Shown here: in pieces, positions 11,383 through 55,284 of the stretch
How the letters are laid out: every line of letters starts with the position of its first letter
Position numbering within the stretch: position 1 is the stretch's first letter
Source of the DNA: Streptomyces sp. NBC_00239
GTDB lineage: Bacteria; Actinomycetota; Actinomycetes; Streptomycetales; Streptomycetaceae
Reading direction: 5' to 3'
Assembly: GCF_036194065.1 (NCBI RefSeq)
Contig: NZ_CP108095.1
Coordinates: 7,874,001 to 7,938,000, forward strand
Length of the DNA: 64,000 nucleotides
Notes under the pieces: model-generated
The model's input: the letters and a program-made list of their open reading frames with translations, nothing else
What the model was told of the DNA's origin: nothing
The model's database searches: none
Made by a program: the position numbers and the translations under genes

Positions 11383-11437
11383 GCGCTCACCCTACGACAG
11401 AACACTTCGGCCGTCACCGAAATAAATCGGGGGGCGG

Positions 11438-12187
11438 TCAGCTCCAGGCGTCCGGGGTGATCCCCAACAGGTCCGCGAACGCCCGCTCGCCGGCCGGCGT
11501 CACCTCCAACCCGCGCCCGCCGCCCGCCGGCCGCACCACCCATCCCCGGTCCAGCGCCCGCGCGCACAGCCGCGCCCCCGCGACGCCCCCGAGGTGGCGG
11601 CGGCGCTCCGTCCAGTCCAGGCAGGCGCTCACCGGCCGCCTCCGCCCCTTGTGTTCGAGGTCGACACCCGCTTCCGCGCACCACTGCCGGCCGGCGTCCG
11701 TCAGCTCGAAAACGCCCTCCGTGCGGATCAGCCCGCGCCGCTCCATCGCGTCCGTCACCGCCATCCCCAGGCGCCCCGCGAAGTGGTCGTAACAGGTGCG
11801 GGCGAGAGCCAGCGGATCCGGCGCCGCGACCACGGGCGCCGCGTGCGCCGAGTCCCGGTCCGGAATCGCGTACGAGGCGAGCTCGTCGAGGAGGCGGGCC
11901 GTCGCGGCGTCGGCGATCCGCACGTAGCTGTGCCGGCCCTGCCGCTCGGTCACGCAGAGCCCCGCCTCGGTCAGCCGGGCCAGGTGCCCGCTGACGGTGG
12001 ACGGTGCGACGGCGGTGATCCGGGCCAGTTCGCCCGCGGTCCAGGCGCGCCCCTCCAGCAACGTCATGCAGATGGCGGCCCGCGTCTCGTCGGCCAGCGC
12101 CGCGGCGAAGCCGGCGAGGAGAGCGGCCGGAGCGACGCCGTCCCGCGGCCTTCCGTCCCCGGATGCTCCGGTATGCGACTCGTTCAT
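11438..12187 (-). CDS. ArsR-type winged-helix regulator
   Basis: 249 residues. Seen: an N-terminal winged helix with LADETRAAICMTLLEGRAWT, the recognition helix region VAPSTVSGHLARLTEAGL and wing VTERQGRHSYVRIAD (residues ~30-105), followed by a ~140-residue effector/oligomerisation region found in the longer ArsR-like regulators. I see no metal-binding CVC motif, so a non-metal signal is likely. I chose ATG 12187 because the upstream in-frame extension to 12400 is not protein-like. The EamA exporter follows after 55 bases, suggesting a regulator-exporter unit. Confidence 0.8.
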   Translation of the reverse strand: MNESHTGASGDGRPRDGVAPAALLAGFAAALADETRAAICMTLLEGRAWTAGELARITAVAPSTVSGHLARLTEAGLCVTERQGRHSYVRIADAATARLLDELASYAIPDRDSAHAAPVVAAPDPLALARTCYDHFAGRLGMAVTDAMERRGLIRTEGVFELTDAGRQWCAEAGVDLEHKGRRRPVSACLDWTERRRHLGGVAGARLCARALDRGWVVRPAGGGRGLEVTPAGERAFADLLGITPDAWS

Positions 12188-12362
12188 GCCACCAGCATGC
12201 CCCATCGCTTCGGTCAATGACGAAACATGTCCTGGTTGAGGGCTGGGCGGCCGCGGGCGGATGGCGGTTGGAAGCCGGGCGTAAACGGGACCAGAGCACC
12301 ACACGGCGTGAAATCCCCGCATAGTGATGCCCCGGCAATGACCTGCGAGGAAGGGGAGGGCC

Positions 12363-13340
12363 ATGGGGTACGGAGAGTCCGAAGGGTCCGCGAGGTTCAC
12401 GGAGTCCTCGGGAGCCGTCGGGTCGGCGGGGCCGGTGGCGTCCGGAGGGGCCGTGGTGTCCGCAGGGCGGCCGGCAGTGCCGTCACTGCCGACGGTACGG
12501 GTGGCCGCGCCGCCCTTCGCGGCGGGCCGGCCGCCGGTTCCGGCCGGCCCGGACGGCTACGAGCTGGCGCTGATCCAGGACGGCGGGATGTGGATCGCGC
12601 AGGCGCGCAACGAGACGGAAGTGTCCGCGGGAGACCTCGTGTTGTGGAACCCCTCGCTGCCGCTCGACTGCCGGGGACTCGGCGCCTCCTGCGGCGCACC
12701 CTCGCGGGCCATCGTGCTGCACCTGCCGCGGACCGAGCTGCCCCTTCCCGACAGCAGCGTCGACCGGCTGCTGGCCACGAGCATGCCGGGCCGGGGCGGC
12801 GTCGGCGGGCTGTTGGCGCGCTTCCTCAGCAGCCTCGTACGGGAGGCCCCGGCGCTGTCCGAGCCCGATGCCGTCCGCCTGGGCCGGGTGACCCGGGAAC
12901 TGGCCGCCGTGCTCCTCGCGCACCACGCGGGACTGCACGAGCGATTACCCGACCGGTCCCGCGCCTCCCGCCACCGGGAGCTCCGGGCCCGCATCGAGTC
13001 GTACATCGACGCCCGCCTCGGCGATCCCGGTCTGACCCCGTCGTCCATCGCGGCCCGCCACCACATCTCCGTACGGACCCTGCACTGGCTCTTCCGCGAC
13101 CAGGAGCGGACCGTGGCCGCGGCGATCCGCGACGCGCGGCTGCGGCGGTGCCGGGCCGACCTCGCCGACGGCACCCTGGCCGGGGTGCCCATCCACGCCA
13201 TCGCGGCGCGCTGGGGGTTCACCGGGCCGGCCGCCTTCAGCCGGGCCTTCCGGAGCGCGTACGGCGCCACCGCCGGCGAGTTCCGCGACGCCGCGGCCGC
13301 GGCGGCCGCCGGAGCTGTCGGGGCCGTTGGAGCCGCCTGA
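12363..13340 (+). CDS. AraC-family regulator containing a TTA codon
   Basis: 325 residues. Seen: a low-complexity Gly/Ser head; an AraC-binding-domain-like section (about residues 60-190: GGMWIAQARNETEVSAGDLV, HLPRTELPLPDSSVDRLLA); and two helix-turn-helix motifs at about residues 202-309 (LTPSSIAARHHISVRTLHWL and IHAIAARWGFTGPAAFSRAF). Start ATG 12363 has AAGGGGAGG just upstream. Codon 195 (12945-12947) is TTA, the only in-frame TTA I found in the window. In Streptomyces that codon requires the bldA leucyl-tRNA, so translation is probably restricted to late growth. Targets unknown; ArsR is divergent. Confidence 0.85.
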   Translation: MGYGESEGSARFTESSGAVGSAGPVASGGAVVSAGRPAVPSLPTVRVAAPPFAAGRPPVPAGPDGYELALIQDGGMWIAQARNETEVSAGDLVLWNPSLPLDCRGLGASCGAPSRAIVLHLPRTELPLPDSSVDRLLATSMPGRGGVGGLLARFLSSLVREAPALSEPDAVRLGRVTRELAAVLLAHHAGLHERLPDRSRASRHRELRARIESYIDARLGDPGLTPSSIAARHHISVRTLHWLFRDQERTVAAAIRDARLRRCRADLADGTLAGVPIHAIAARWGFTGPAAFSRAFRSAYGATAGEFRDAAAAAAAGAVGAVGAA

Positions 13341-51560: not shown

Positions 51561-51571
51561 GAACCGCGGGG

Positions 51572-52681
51572 TTACTTGGCGCCGAGGCCGGCGTCGGGGA
51601 CGGCGGGCTTGCCGGCGGCCTTGAGGACCTTGTTGAGGAGGGTGAGGTCGTAGATCCCGGCGAGTTCGGGTTCCTTGATGAGTCCGGCCTTGACGGCCCA
51701 TGCGGACTGGGTCTTGAGGGTGGCGGCGAGGGGGTCGTCGGTGACCTGGATGCTCTTCCAGGCGGGGTCGATGACCTCGGGCTTGAGTGCCTTGCCGCTG
51801 AGTTCCTTGAGGGCGGCGTTGGCGGCGGCCTTGGCCTGGTCGGGGTTGGCGGTGATCCAGGCGTTGGTCTTCACGGTGCCGGTCAGGACGGCTTCGACGA
51901 CGTCGGGGTGGTCCTTGAGGAAGGTCTGGGACACGATGACGTTCGTGATGACGAACTTCTTGTCGGGCCACAGGCTGGTTTCGTCGAGGAGGACCTTGGC
52001 GCCTTCGGCGACGAGCTTGGAGGCGGTGGGTTCGGGGACCCAGGCGCCGTCGATGGAGCCGGACTTGTAGGCGTCGGGGGTGACCTTGTTGTCGGTGCGG
52101 ACGACGGAGACGTCGCCCTTGCCGCTTTCGGGGTCGACCGTCCAGCCCTTCTCGCCGATCCAGTTGAGGAAGGCGACGTCCTGGGTGTTCCCCTTCTGGG
52201 GGGTGGCGATCTTCTTGCCCTTGAGGTCGTCGAGGGTTTTGATCTTGTCGGGGTTCACGACGAGCTTGACGCCGCCGGAGGCGGCGCCGGAGACGATCCG
52301 CAGGTTGCTGCCCTTGGACTTGACGTAGGCGTTGATGGAGGGCGAGGGGCCGATGAACCCGATGTCCAGAGAGCCGCCGTTGAGCGCCTCGATCTCGGAG
52401 GGGCCGGCGTTGAAGGTCTGGGCCTTGATGGTGGTGGCGCCGAGTTCCTTCTGGATCAGGCCTTCCTTGATGCCGACCAGTGCGGTGGCGTGGGTGAGGT
52501 TCGGGAAGTAGCCGATCCGCACCGAGTCGGCGGAGAGCTTCTTGCCGCCGGTGGCCGCGACGTTGGTCTTGTCGTCGTCCTTCTTCGCGTCCGAGCCGTA
52601 GCCGCAGGCCGTCAGCAGGAGGGGCAGCGCGGCGGTGACGGCGAGGGCGCGCAGGAGGGTGACCGGTCTTGCGGCAGACAT
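51572..52681 (-). CDS. sulfonate/taurine-type ABC transporter binding lipoprotein
   Basis: 369 residues. Signal peptide with lipobox LLLTACGY (Cys26), so membrane-anchored outside the cell. The mature part matches the SsuA/NMT1-like periplasmic-binding fold: SVRIGYFPNLTHATALVGIK, FNAGPSEIEALNGGSLDIGF, GPSPSINAYVKSKGS and WVPEPTASKLVAEGA. Probable ligand is an alkanesulfonate or similar organosulfur compound. ATG follows AAAGGAC. No permease or ATPase gene is adjacent: the next gene is convergent, so it must use a transporter encoded elsewhere. It is downstream of a cysteine-type leader peptide. Confidence 0.88.
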   Translation of the reverse strand: MSAARPVTLLRALAVTAALPLLLTACGYGSDAKKDDDKTNVAATGGKKLSADSVRIGYFPNLTHATALVGIKEGLIQKELGATTIKAQTFNAGPSEIEALNGGSLDIGFIGPSPSINAYVKSKGSNLRIVSGAASGGVKLVVNPDKIKTLDDLKGKKIATPQKGNTQDVAFLNWIGEKGWTVDPESGKGDVSVVRTDNKVTPDAYKSGSIDGAWVPEPTASKLVAEGAKVLLDETSLWPDKKFVITNVIVSQTFLKDHPDVVEAVLTGTVKTNAWITANPDQAKAAANAALKELSGKALKPEVIDPAWKSIQVTDDPLAATLKTQSAWAVKAGLIKEPELAGIYDLTLLNKVLKAAGKPAVPDAGLGAK

Positions 52682-53004
52682 GGAAGTGTCCTTTCACGGA
52701 AGGGCTGTCGGGGGTGGTGCGGAGTCGAACGGGGCGTGGCGGGGCGGTCGGCGCGCACGGCACCCGCTCCCGGCCGCCGGTGGGTGACCTGTCGTCACAG
52801 GTCGGGAGGCGCAACGGTGTCGCGGATACCGCGGGAGGGGGTGTCGGGCGCTGCCGTCCGGCGCGCACCGCGCTCACGAGCGCGCGGGGCGGGGAGGTCG
52901 CGGCCGAGGGGTTCGCCCGCCTGCGGAGCGCAGGGTGACGGGCGTACGGAGGTGCGCCGCGCGGAGCCGGACCCCGAGGACGGGATCAGGCCTTGCGGAC
53001 GGGG
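52682..53004. other. leader region between leader peptide and binding protein
   Basis: 323 bases with no gene. It contains one clear hairpin (52786-52803) described separately. If the leader peptide controls the binding protein, the structural switch should lie here. Confidence 0.4.
52786..52803 (-). promoter_or_regulatory. hairpin in the sulfonate-binding gene leader
   Basis: Perfect 7-bp stem (GACCTGT with ACAGGTC) and a 4-base loop, 105 bases upstream of the start codon. No U-run follows. Candidate attenuator element, low confidence. Confidence 0.35.
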
Positions 53005-53106
53005 TCAGGCAGGCCGACAGATGGCGCTGGACGTACGGAGCAGGTCGATGTGCCGGCGGCTGGTGAACGCGGGCAGCAGGCGGCCCGCAAGACGCAGTGT
53101 TCGCAC
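53005..53106 (-). CDS. cysteine-type leader peptide
   Basis: 33 codons. GTG start with GGGAGG 5 bases upstream. The peptide has the pattern of actinobacterial 'putative leader peptides' found upstream of cysteine and sulfonate genes: a basic head, then TSRRHIDLLRTSSAICR with a single late Cys (and Arg-His) just before the stop. I read the frame codon by codon; it is uninterrupted. Known members act by ribosome attenuation in response to cysteine or sulfur supply. It sits directly below the Rrf2-type palindrome at 53131-53151, and the sulfonate-binding gene follows. Confidence 0.8.
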   Translation of the reverse strand: MRTLRLAGRLLPAFTSRRHIDLLRTSSAICRPA

Positions 53107-53130
53107 GGCCACCTCCCCGGATTCCTAGTT

Positions 53131-53151
53131 TTCCTACCTGGTTGGTAGGCA
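53131..53151 (-). promoter_or_regulatory. Rrf2-type operator upstream of the leader peptide
   Basis: A 21-bp palindrome: arm TTCCTACC, 5-base spacer, arm GGTAGGCA (7 of 8 paired). It ends 25 bases before the leader start, so it overlaps the promoter. It matches the element at 55130-55150 at 16 of 21 positions. Confidence 0.7.
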
Positions 53152-53263
53152 TATTGGCAGACGGTGCCGCACACCCCAAGGGGTTGCCCACATGCCGGAC
53201 GAAAGTATCTCGCCAGATGAGAACATGCAGGTCAGAGGGTGGATCGAAGTGAGTCGACCGGGC

Positions 53264-53722
53264 TCAGGGATTGGTCCAGGCGTCGGGAACGCGGGTCAGC
53301 GCGGACACGCCGGCCGGCAGCTCGTGCGACGCGACGTCGGCGAGCGTCACACCTTCGAGGATCTCGCGCACGTTGGACCGCAGTGCGATCCACAGGGGGA
53401 GGAGCGACTGCGCGGGGCCGGTGTACGACAGGTCCGGAGGCCTGACCCCGCGGACCGACACGAGGGGCCCGTCCACGACCCGGATCACATCGGCGATGCT
53501 GATGGACCGGGCGGGCTTGGCCAGCCGGTAGCCGCCGTTGCCGCCGCGCTGGCTGAGCACCAGACCGCCCCGCCGCATGTCGTTGAGGATGCCCTCGAGG
53601 AACTTGTGCGGGATGTCCTGGGCGTCGGCGATGGCCTCGGCCTTGAGCGGGCCGTCGTCCTGTGACGCGGCGAGCTGCAGTGCGGCCCGTACCGCGTAGT
53701 CCGCCCTGGCTGAGATCCGCAT
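53264..53722 (-). CDS. Rrf2-family repressor without Fe-S cysteines
   Basis: 152 residues. Seen: RISARADYAVRAALQLA, EAIADAQDIPHKFLEGIL and the wing LVLSQRGGNGGYRLAKPARS, all classic Rrf2 winged-helix features. The C-terminal loop where IscR/NsrR have three cysteines reads VRGVRPPDLSYTGPAQSLL, with none, as in the cysteine-metabolism branch (CymR-like). Start: ATG 53722, or GTG two codons earlier. A GATAAT -10 element lies 7 bases upstream (53729-53734), pointing to a leaderless transcript in addition to read-through from the monooxygenase gene 34 bases before. Confidence 0.88.
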   Translation of the reverse strand: MRISARADYAVRAALQLAASQDDGPLKAEAIADAQDIPHKFLEGILNDMRRGGLVLSQRGGNGGYRLAKPARSISIADVIRVVDGPLVSVRGVRPPDLSYTGPAQSLLPLWIALRSNVREILEGVTLADVASHELPAGVSALTRVPDAWTNP

Positions 53723-53756
53723 GTGCACATTATCCCGTACGGATCCGGCCCCCGCG

Positions 53757-54968
53757 TCAGTGGAAGGCGGCGGCTCCCACCGTGCGCTGGGAGCCGTTGA
53801 GGTAGTGCTCGCCGATGGAGCGCAGGCGGTGCGCGGCCGGCCGGTGGGCCGTGAGGACGCGCGCGTTGCGCCAGAAGCGGTCCAGGCCGGGTGCGTCGGC
53901 GAGTTCCAGCACCCGGGTGGTGATGTGCAGGGCGGCCTTCGACGTCACCGTCTCGGCCGTGGCGACCAGCGCGGCGACGGCCGCGGGCTCCTCCGGATCC
54001 AGGTGCGCACCGGTGTCGAGGGCCTGCGCCATCACGTCCGTCGCCCGGTCGACGACGGCCGTGGCCGTGTGTGCGGCCGAGGCGAGTTCCCCGTACGTCA
54101 GGAAGAGGTCCGGGTCCTCGCCGGGCAGCCGGTGCGCGTGGCCGCCCCTGCTGAGGTCGCGCGCTTCGGTGAGGGCGCCCTCGGCGATGCCGAGGGCGAC
54201 GTGGCACAGCGCGAGCCGCAGCGCGGGCTCGGCGAGCGCGGTGAAGGGCGCGGTCGACTCGTCGTCGTCCGGCCGGCGGCCCAGCACCTGTCCCGGCGCG
54301 ACGGCCACCCGGTCGAGGACGACCTCGCCGGCGCCGGCGACGCGCTGCCCGAGGCGGTCGCGGGCGGGCTCGACGCTCACGCCCCGCGCGCCGAGCGGGA
54401 TGCGTACGACCAGGACGTCACCGGTCACGACGCAGACGGCGTCCACCACGATCTGGTCGGCGACGGCCACCGCCGTGTCCACGGAGCGGCGCCCGTCCAG
54501 CACGTGGCCGGCGGTCCGCGGCCGCAGCGTGAGGTCCGGTCCGTCGATGCCGCCGTCGGCCGCAGGGGTGCGGATCGCCCCGGTCCACAGCCACTGCTCG
54601 TCCACCGACGCCTCCTCGAGCGCGGTCGCGTGGTGGTGACTCGCGTAGAACCGGCCGCTCCACGCGTGGACGTAGTGGCGGGCGAGTACGGCGCCGACGG
54701 AACTGTCCGCCGCGGCGACCTCCCGTATGACGGCGCATCCGGTACGCCAGTCGGCCCCGCGGTCCGGACCCGGCGGAGTGAGGGACGCCAGCAGGCCGGC
54801 CTCGCGCAGCCGGGCCCGCTCGTCGGTCGGAGGCCGGCCCGCCTGGTCGCGGGCGATGGCGTCCGCGGCGAGGTCGTCCGCCACGTCACGGGCGGTACGC
54901 AGGAGCGCGCGGCGCCGGCCGGCGGAACGCGCACCGGCCGTGCTCGGGGTGGTCGGCACGGGCGTCAC
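53757..54968 (-). CDS. SfnB/DszC-like flavin monooxygenase (acyl-CoA dehydrogenase fold)
   Basis: 403 residues with the acyl-CoA-dehydrogenase three-domain layout: N-terminal helices, a beta middle (GPDLTLRPRTAGHVLDGRRS, VTGDVLVVRIPLGARGVSVE), and a C-terminal four-helix bundle (TYGELASAAHTATAVVDRAT). The catalytic acid region and lack of an acyl-CoA-loop fit the reduced-flavin monooxygenases SfnB/DszC that desulfonate or oxidise organosulfur compounds; context supports that. The GTG start overlaps the stop of a 25-codon ORF (GTGA). Upstream is the palindrome 55130-55150. Rrf2 gene follows after 34 bases. Confidence 0.8.
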   Translation of the reverse strand: MTPVPTTPSTAGARSAGRRRALLRTARDVADDLAADAIARDQAGRPPTDERARLREAGLLASLTPPGPDRGADWRTGCAVIREVAAADSSVGAVLARHYVHAWSGRFYASHHHATALEEASVDEQWLWTGAIRTPAADGGIDGPDLTLRPRTAGHVLDGRRSVDTAVAVADQIVVDAVCVVTGDVLVVRIPLGARGVSVEPARDRLGQRVAGAGEVVLDRVAVAPGQVLGRRPDDDESTAPFTALAEPALRLALCHVALGIAEGALTEARDLSRGGHAHRLPGEDPDLFLTYGELASAAHTATAVVDRATDVMAQALDTGAHLDPEEPAAVAALVATAETVTSKAALHITTRVLELADAPGLDRFWRNARVLTAHRPAAHRLRSIGEHYLNGSQRTVGAAAFH

Positions 54969-55042
54969 CGACAGGCCCGGGCGCCGCGGTGCGGCTCGGG
55001 AGCCGGCCGGCGGGCGCGGTCAGACGGGATGCCGGTGGTCAT
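54965..55042 (-). CDS. possible 25-residue leader ORF of the monooxygenase
   Basis: 25 residues: ATG preceded by CGGAG at a suitable distance, ending with Cys-Arg and a TGA that overlaps the GTG of the monooxygenase. It does not carry the RRHIDL signature of the other leader. Translational coupling is suggested by the overlap. Low confidence. Confidence 0.35.
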   Translation of the reverse strand: MTTGIPSDRARRPAPEPHRGARACR

Positions 55043-55129
55043 GTGGGCTACTCCGGAACGTTGTTGGGTGGCCTCGGGCGGTTGCCGGGAGAAGGCGGCG
55101 CGCGGCGCGCGACCGCAAGAACCCCACCT

Positions 55130-55150
55130 TTCCTATCGGATTGATAGGAA
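55130..55150 (-). promoter_or_regulatory. Rrf2-type operator upstream of the monooxygenase
   Basis: A 21-bp palindrome: arms TTCCTATC and GATAGGAA perfectly complementary, spacer GGATT. It lies ~90 bases upstream of the 25-codon ORF and matches the element at 53131-53151 at 16 of 21 positions. Confidence 0.72.
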
Positions 55151-55284
55151 TACTCTCCGAAGGTTGACGCCTCAGCAAGAGTGCGGCCGGATCGTGGACA
55201 GATCCGTCTTGAATAGAGAGATACCGCAGATCAGAGGCCTGCTGAGGCACCGACACCCGAGCCCGACTGCCCGCTCGCCGGGGG

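Follow-up and report, generated by a model that had tools for sequence, protein, structure and literature searches.

A short locus of Streptomyces sp. NBC_00239 raises the question of how a streptomycete switches the scavenging of organic sulfur on and off, a form of control that is little described for Streptomyces and other Actinomycetes in the titles, abstracts and excerpts searched. The locus occupies positions 51,572 to 55,150 of a 64,000-nucleotide stretch (contig NZ_CP108095.1, positions 7,874,001 to 7,938,000), hereafter the window, and is read on the minus strand in the order operator 1, sfnB-like monooxygenase gene, rrf2, operator 2, leader open reading frame (ORF) and ssuA. The answer to which we give a probability of about three in four is that an autoregulated, CymR-like repressor of the Rrf2 family governs organosulfur scavenging from both predicted operators and that the leader adds a second layer of control over ssuA.

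Two predicted operators in putative promoters of identical geometry

The sequence-only reading had described two palindromes with 16 of 21 bases in common and arms CCTAYC and GRTAGG around a 5-base spacer, and both are present as claimed. Operator 1 (55130..55150; TTCCTATCGGATTGATAGGAA, read as TTCCTATC-GGATT-GATAGGAA) is located in the promoter of the sfnB-like/rrf2 operon, as judged from its sequence, the genome scan and the sites of relatives upstream of SfnB-like genes. Operator 2 (53131..53151; TTCCTACCTGGTTGGTAGGCA, read as TTCCTACC-TGGTT-GGTAGGCA) is assigned from sequence and conservation to the promoter of the leader/ssuA unit. The palindromes do precede the leader and the SfnB/DszC-like gene, but the Rrf2 regulator does not stand alone between them, since rrf2 and the sfnB-like gene both lie in that interval.

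The pattern CCTAYC-N5-GRTAGG has two exact matches in the 9.3-Mb genome, and these are the two operators. Within the window, a search permitting up to one mismatch returned two matches, both exact (shuffle mean 0.17; two reached in 1 of 100 shuffles). With one mismatch allowed, the pattern is found at 11 places in the genome against 29 for the reversed control, and CCTA-N9-TAGG occurs four times against 45 for its reversed control. None of the tested sulfur genes was found beside the two further CCTA-N9-TAGG places. Across relatives, the core that is kept is CCTA-N9-TAGG with T/A outside, which corrects the arm consensus first proposed.

Both operators are set in the same promoter geometry, in which a -35-like element is followed by 17 bases and by a -10-like element whose last base is the first of the operator. 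These elements, assigned from sequence and alignment and all on the minus strand, are TTGCTG (55173..55178) and GAGTAT (55150..55155) in promoter 1, and TTGGGG (53174..53179) and CAATAT (53151..53156) in promoter 2; the latter pair is accompanied by the conserved blocks CTTGGGG, found in 62 aligned promoters, and TCTGCCAcgAT. Both operators therefore touch the -10-like element and probably cover the transcription start, as predicted from these elements, so that a bound dimer would block initiation. Moreover, a second conserved block, TCCA.cAT.tGa.Ca.CC, lies just upstream of both -35 elements and extends into them (55176..55198, TCCACGATCCGG...CTTG; 53177..53199, TCCGGCATGTGGGCAACCCCTTG; both minus strand), and a 23-base pattern built from the two copies is matched exactly nowhere else in the genome.

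Conservation of the site and its coupling to the regulator

Conservation was examined in the best 80 of 202 named rrf2 relatives, all from Streptomyces except one listed as actinobacterium. Within 300 bases past rrf2, the site is present without mismatch in 38 of the 80 loci and with one mismatch in 24 more (62/80 in total), whereas dinucleotide shuffles give an expectation of 0/80 exact sites (none in 1600 shuffles) and 2.2/80 at one mismatch or fewer. In L007, Streptomyces virginiae NRRL ISP-5094, the two sites are both exact. When these 62 counterparts of operator 2 are aligned, conservation is strong in the operator itself and in the CTTGGGG and TCTGCCAcgAT blocks, weaker in the spacer and almost absent from the leader flanks.

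The sequence-only reading had also proposed that the motif should co-occur with the regulator, a check that was run on 151 Streptomyces genomes with the pattern TNCCTA-N9-TAGGNA, orthologues being defined as Rrf2 matches that score 200 bits or more. The pattern is present in 50 of the 87 genomes that carry the orthologue and in 6 of the 64 that lack it (Fisher p 3.9e-10), with means of 1.06 and 0.09 sites per genome, respectively, while the reversed control gives 1.31 and 1.39. The frequency is graded by type of regulator: sites are present in 39/54 genomes with a closer orthologue (230 bits or more), in 11/33 with only a more distant type and in 6/64 without either. At least 72 sites were taken in the orthologue-bearing genomes: 35 are no more than 5 kb from the orthologue, and 37 are farther away or on another contig. 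The association with the regulator also holds for the sites beyond 5 kb from rrf2 or on a different contig (at least 37 vs 6, p 6e-5), and it persists when other palindrome classes are left out (28 vs 4, p 3e-4).

As separate observations from this survey, a palindrome of another kind, TACCTAACRYGTAASTAGGRA, was seen repeatedly in Streptomyces genomes, whether or not they carry the Rrf2 orthologue (G022, G066, G082, G090, G125, G126). Furthermore, in G117 (near C1:7629766) and G020 (C140:422), partial rrf2 matches of 86% and 77% identity lie about 1 kb or less from sites, and a fuller, more distant rrf2 copy is found elsewhere, a pattern in which local decay of rrf2 is possible.

In a class-wide sample of 246 genomes from 91 genera, an Rrf2 homologue at E<=1e-25 is present in 165 genomes and 65 genera. 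Outside Streptomyces, in three genomes (G372, G319, G377), the site lies within about 150 bp of Rrf2 homologues with 51-57% identity. Ten regions around homologues in other genera contain CysD/CysNC-like genes in two cases (G296, G313; by sequence motif) and ssuA in one (G180), and neither was seen in the other seven.

Genes beside the sites

The second check proposed at the outset, namely whether the motif lies near sulfur genes, had a positive outcome in Streptomyces. Twenty site regions were picked by hand from the listed sites, one of which (L175) had been taken for its rrf2 context and has no site, leaving n=19; genes were called with a simple codon-composition script. A gene for SsuA, TauE, a sulfatase or a DszC-like protein adjoins the site in 12 of these 19 regions (L156, L157, L158, L161, L162, L163, L167, L168, L170, L171, L172, L174), several of the 19 being ssuA clusters and not remote targets. 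Among the others, four have a GST_C-type gene (L160, L164, L166, L173), two have neither kind (L159, L169) and one is cut by the contig end (L165). The site is located inside the 5' end of a called ORF in L161 and L173, and in L163 and L174 the DszC-like gene is separated from the site by a Trans_reg_C gene.

Outside Streptomyces, 6 of the 30 loci fetched have a TauE, SsuA or sulfatase homologue next to the site (in L204 with the site inside the 5' end of a called ORF), compared with 0 of 19 comparison loci, a weak control because all of them come from the window's own genome and had been fetched for other purposes. Further sites beside sulfur genes appear in the hand-chosen non-Streptomyces regions L242, L244, L246 and L247, and in G218 ssuA and an Rrf2 homologue form a gene row downstream of a site. 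A second set of 20 regions was also chosen by hand from the listed sites.

Two side observations concern these regions. Firstly, three Streptomyces regions encode small proteins that were matched only in the OmpR-type DNA-binding part, with no receiver-domain match seen, and that adjoin the operators as well as DszC-like or sulfatase genes (L163 4183-4749, L174 3765-4454, L156 5747-6277). Secondly, a genome of another family (G300; L233-L236) has at least seven sites, of which some are closely spaced. SBP_bac_5 binding proteins, a luciferase-like monooxygenase and an SfnB-like protein are encoded nearby, and this genome perhaps holds a larger regulon.

The regulator and its relation to CymR

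The rrf2 gene (53264..53728, minus strand) has a likely start at 53722 (MRISARADY) that would give a protein of 152 amino acids, as in most listed database relatives. Its product is a clear member of the Rrf2 superfamily (PF02082, 114.5 bits, cut-off 30; TIGR00738, 111.4 bits, cut-off 73.3). The sequence-only reading was right that it lacks the three Fe-S cysteines, and indeed its translation contains no Cys at all; 76 of the 80 relatives likewise have none and four have one. Without cysteines, the protein can neither hold an Fe-S cluster nor work as a thiol switch, and Fe-S sensing of the IscR/NsrR type, which uses three cysteines, is ruled out. IscR, NsrR and RsrR, the last two of which have been studied in Streptomyces, have the Rrf2 fold with its winged helix-turn-helix in common with the window protein but carry cluster cysteines. 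The other strong Rrf2 protein of this genome, which has a Cys-rich stretch (CEGSTPCPLRSAC), looks NsrR-like.

Among regulators of known function, CymR of Bacillus subtilis and Staphylococcus aureus offers the closest parallel. CymR is the best-scoring named NCBIfam equivalog for the window protein (NF047409), although the 90.2 bits obtained are below the cut-off of 195, and the protein cannot be named CymR. The predicted structure points to the same fold, as the B. subtilis CymR structure (2y75) ranks first in a fold search with the model. Matches to the sequences of solved structures reach 71.9 bits for S. aureus CymR and 69.9 for B. subtilis CymR. CymR-type operators, with the consensus drawn from B. 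subtilis, are palindromes of the CCTA...TAGG type and of similar size. However, identity to the solved CymR is about 32%, the cysteine-free window protein can have no thiol switch of the S. aureus type, and its regulon is small here, with no operator at the sulfate-locus promoter.

Excerpts from the CymR literature describe a repressor (PMC3828012, PMC2869319) that has no Fe-S cluster (PMC9338935) and controls sulfur genes, ssu among them (PMC3828012); in B. subtilis it forms complexes with CysK depending on the levels of cysteine and O-acetylserine (PMC3828012). In Rhodococcus IGTS8, a CymR homologue is suspected from protein abundance and homology, according to excerpts of two papers (PMC8557817, PMC9426449). 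Like the window protein, this candidate comes from an actinobacterium, belongs to the Rrf2 family and is linked to the sulfur source, but in the excerpt available it rests on protein abundance, homology and annotation, and no operator or adjoining sulfur genes are reported there (PMC8557817).

The leader peptide

The leader ORF (MRTLRLAGRLLPAFTSRRHIDLLRTSSAICRPA; 53005..53106, minus strand) matches the NCBIfam family NF042934, 'putative leader peptide', with 37.4 bits (cut-off 27). Leaders of the type LTSRRHIDLxRTSSAICRP follow rrf2 in at least 31 of the 80 relatives, a hand count and a lower bound because the search required H[IV]DL. The earlier description of a cysteine-type leader peptide thus holds as regards a conserved ORF of a catalogued family, with the correction that it has a single Cys codon near its end and not a run of them. 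The Cys-rich leader family Ms4527A (NF042936) is matched only partially and below its cut-off (23.1 bits; cut-off 45).

Cysteine leaders before Mycobacterium cys operons were predicted in 2005, without terminators, according to an excerpt of that work (PMC1262725), and attenuation that depends on cysteine is reported for short ORFs of mycobacteria in which the cysteine codons are contiguous (Canestrari 2020, cited after an excerpt of PMC9031893). The window leader resembles the Ms4527A type in being an ORF before sulfur genes but differs in its single late Cys codon and in a GGGGAGG upstream that looks like a ribosome site, unlike the leaderless start of the Ms4527A type.

As a side observation, in two relatives (L013, L017, minus strand), RRRHVDLRRVASAVCRP-type leader ORFs are found about 20 bp away from the upstream site and are encoded on the opposite strand, which suggests that divergent genes share that operator.

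Proposed mechanism and competing explanations

From these patterns, we infer repression rather than activation. A cysteine-free, CymR-like Rrf2 dimer would bind both palindromes and repress from both. At operator 1, at the start of the sfnB-like/rrf2 operon, it would repress itself together with a flavin monooxygenase acting on organic sulfur compounds, and at operator 2, at the start of the leader/ssuA unit, it would repress sulfonate uptake. Plentiful sulfur would favour repression, and cysteine shortage would make the repressor let go, the signal possibly being O-acetylserine or a CysK partner by analogy with Bacillus. As a second layer, ssuA expression would also rise when ribosomes translate the late Cys codon of the leader slowly.

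Several results weigh against this reading. In the co-occurrence survey, no strict site was found in 37 of the 87 orthologue-bearing genomes, and the p values are too small by an unspecified factor because the genomes share ancestry. No site with one mismatch or fewer was found within the 300 bp tested past rrf2 in 18 of the 80 relatives. At the operator upstream of the SfnB-like gene, it is the place in the gene order that is kept and not always the place in the promoter, the window geometry appearing in only 4 of 40 aligned relatives. Outside Streptomyces, none of the tested sulfur genes was found at 24 of the 30 site loci, and only 1 of 14 Rrf2 neighbourhoods (L189-L202) has a site within 1.5 kb. 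As for the regulator itself, IscR of T. potens (4cic) is the best sequence hit among solved structures with 81.6 bits and so outscores CymR, and the structure model is modest (mean predicted local distance difference test score, pLDDT, 69.6). The leader-ssuA region displays no unusual RNA structure (z -0.77), and the second conserved promoter block may belong to another regulator. Moreover, the sulfate locus of the same genome (L275) has no operator near its promoter, its one match with a single mismatch lying inside an ORF about 3 kb upstream of the leader. Therefore, a global sulfur regulon is not supported in this genome, and the regulon is small here.

Among the competing explanations, the one that survives best, though it is unlikely, holds that the palindromes are the sites of a different transcription factor and that Rrf2 merely travels with sulfur genes. 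The second promoter block suggests that such a factor may act here, and the scarcity of sites with the more distant Rrf2 type (11/33) and in non-Streptomyces Rrf2 neighbourhoods (1/14) points the same way. However, the presence of sites is strongly linked to that of the regulator, even when the sites are remote from rrf2, and in three other genomes the site adjoins the gene of an Rrf2 homologue (51-57% identity). In addition, CCTA/TAGG palindromes of this size are those of CymR-type proteins.

A somewhat less probable explanation accepts Rrf2 as the binding protein and makes it an activator, or a regulator that acts either way depending on the position of its site. When the sites upstream of the SfnB-like gene were aligned in the 40 relatives and counted by hand, 25 were found just before a TTGAC-type -35 element and not at the -10, which favours this explanation; of the rest, 10 share a third setting, one stands apart and four have the window geometry (L005, L007, L010, L018). 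Nevertheless, both operators in the window share a base with the -10-like element and extend over the probable start, where repressors usually bind, and CymR is described as a repressor in excerpts (PMC3828012, PMC2869319). Finally, local chance inverted repeats without a regulatory role, for which only the two further CCTA-N9-TAGG places lacking any of the tested sulfur genes could speak, are ruled out for practical purposes by genome-wide rarity, promoter placement, co-occurrence and, above all, conservation in relatives, the downstream-site counts making chance very improbable.

The repressor reading agrees with the earlier proposal that organosulfur genes are controlled from both sites by one Rrf2 repressor, as borne out by the motif at orthologous loci, its co-occurrence with the regulator and its sulfur-gene neighbours. 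The description of this regulon as undescribed was overstated, because the working is CymR-like, the leader type is catalogued and a CymR/Rrf2-type regulator has already been suspected in Rhodococcus. On the best reading, the kind of system is known and the combination of operator, regulator and target set in Streptomyces is the new part; this set was not found in the titles and abstract beginnings listed by searches of open-licence articles in PubMed Central, nor in the excerpts consulted, RegPrecise and most subscription papers being outside that search. A bolder proposal, which is possible but doubtful, is that a cysteine-free Rrf2 clade separate from CymR is the missing organosulfur-scavenging regulator of Actinomycetes, that it would read its signal through a ligand pocket of its own and not through an Fe-S cluster, a thiol or CysK, and that it is stacked with the cysteine leader, in which case sulfonate uptake would be controlled twice, at initiation and in the leader.

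A defined regulator, a searchable operator and candidate targets (ssuA, TauE, sulfatase and DszC-like genes) make organosulfur control testable in common laboratory strains. The system is also relevant to Rhodococcus, in which cysteine represses biodesulfurisation and a CymR homologue is no more than suspected in the excerpt available (PMC9426449).

The monooxygenase, ssuA and the sulfate locus

The flavin monooxygenase of the acyl-CoA dehydrogenase superfamily (53757..54968, minus strand; exact start uncertain) is the first gene of the presumed rrf2 operon. It had been called SfnB/DszC-like and is related to both proteins, but it is a member of neither equivalog: it scores 127.5 bits with TIGR04022 (SfnB, cut-off 430.9) and 143.8 bits with NF043015 (DszC, cut-off 850), so that neither name can be given to it.

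The ssuA gene (51572..52681, minus strand) encodes an aliphatic sulfonate substrate-binding lipoprotein that matches the SsuA subfamily TIGR01728 with 206.9 bits (cut-off 163.5), and neither ssuB nor ssuC adjoins it. The closest ssuC of the genome is found in the sulfate locus L275, beside another ssuA and with a leader motif. Computed matches in L275 are limited to ssuA, ssuC and this leader motif, the sulfite reductase-, CysC-, CysD-, CysN- and SsuB-like genes having been named by eye from size and short motifs. The two ssuA copies (window 51566-52608; L275 about 11412-12455), although about 5.7 Mb apart, are 99.3% identical in DNA sequence over 1043 bp and differ in the first 70-odd bases of the gene and in the flanks, whereas the ssuA proteins of seven compared relatives, some of them partial, are 76-84% identical. 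This looks like recent gene conversion between the two copies.

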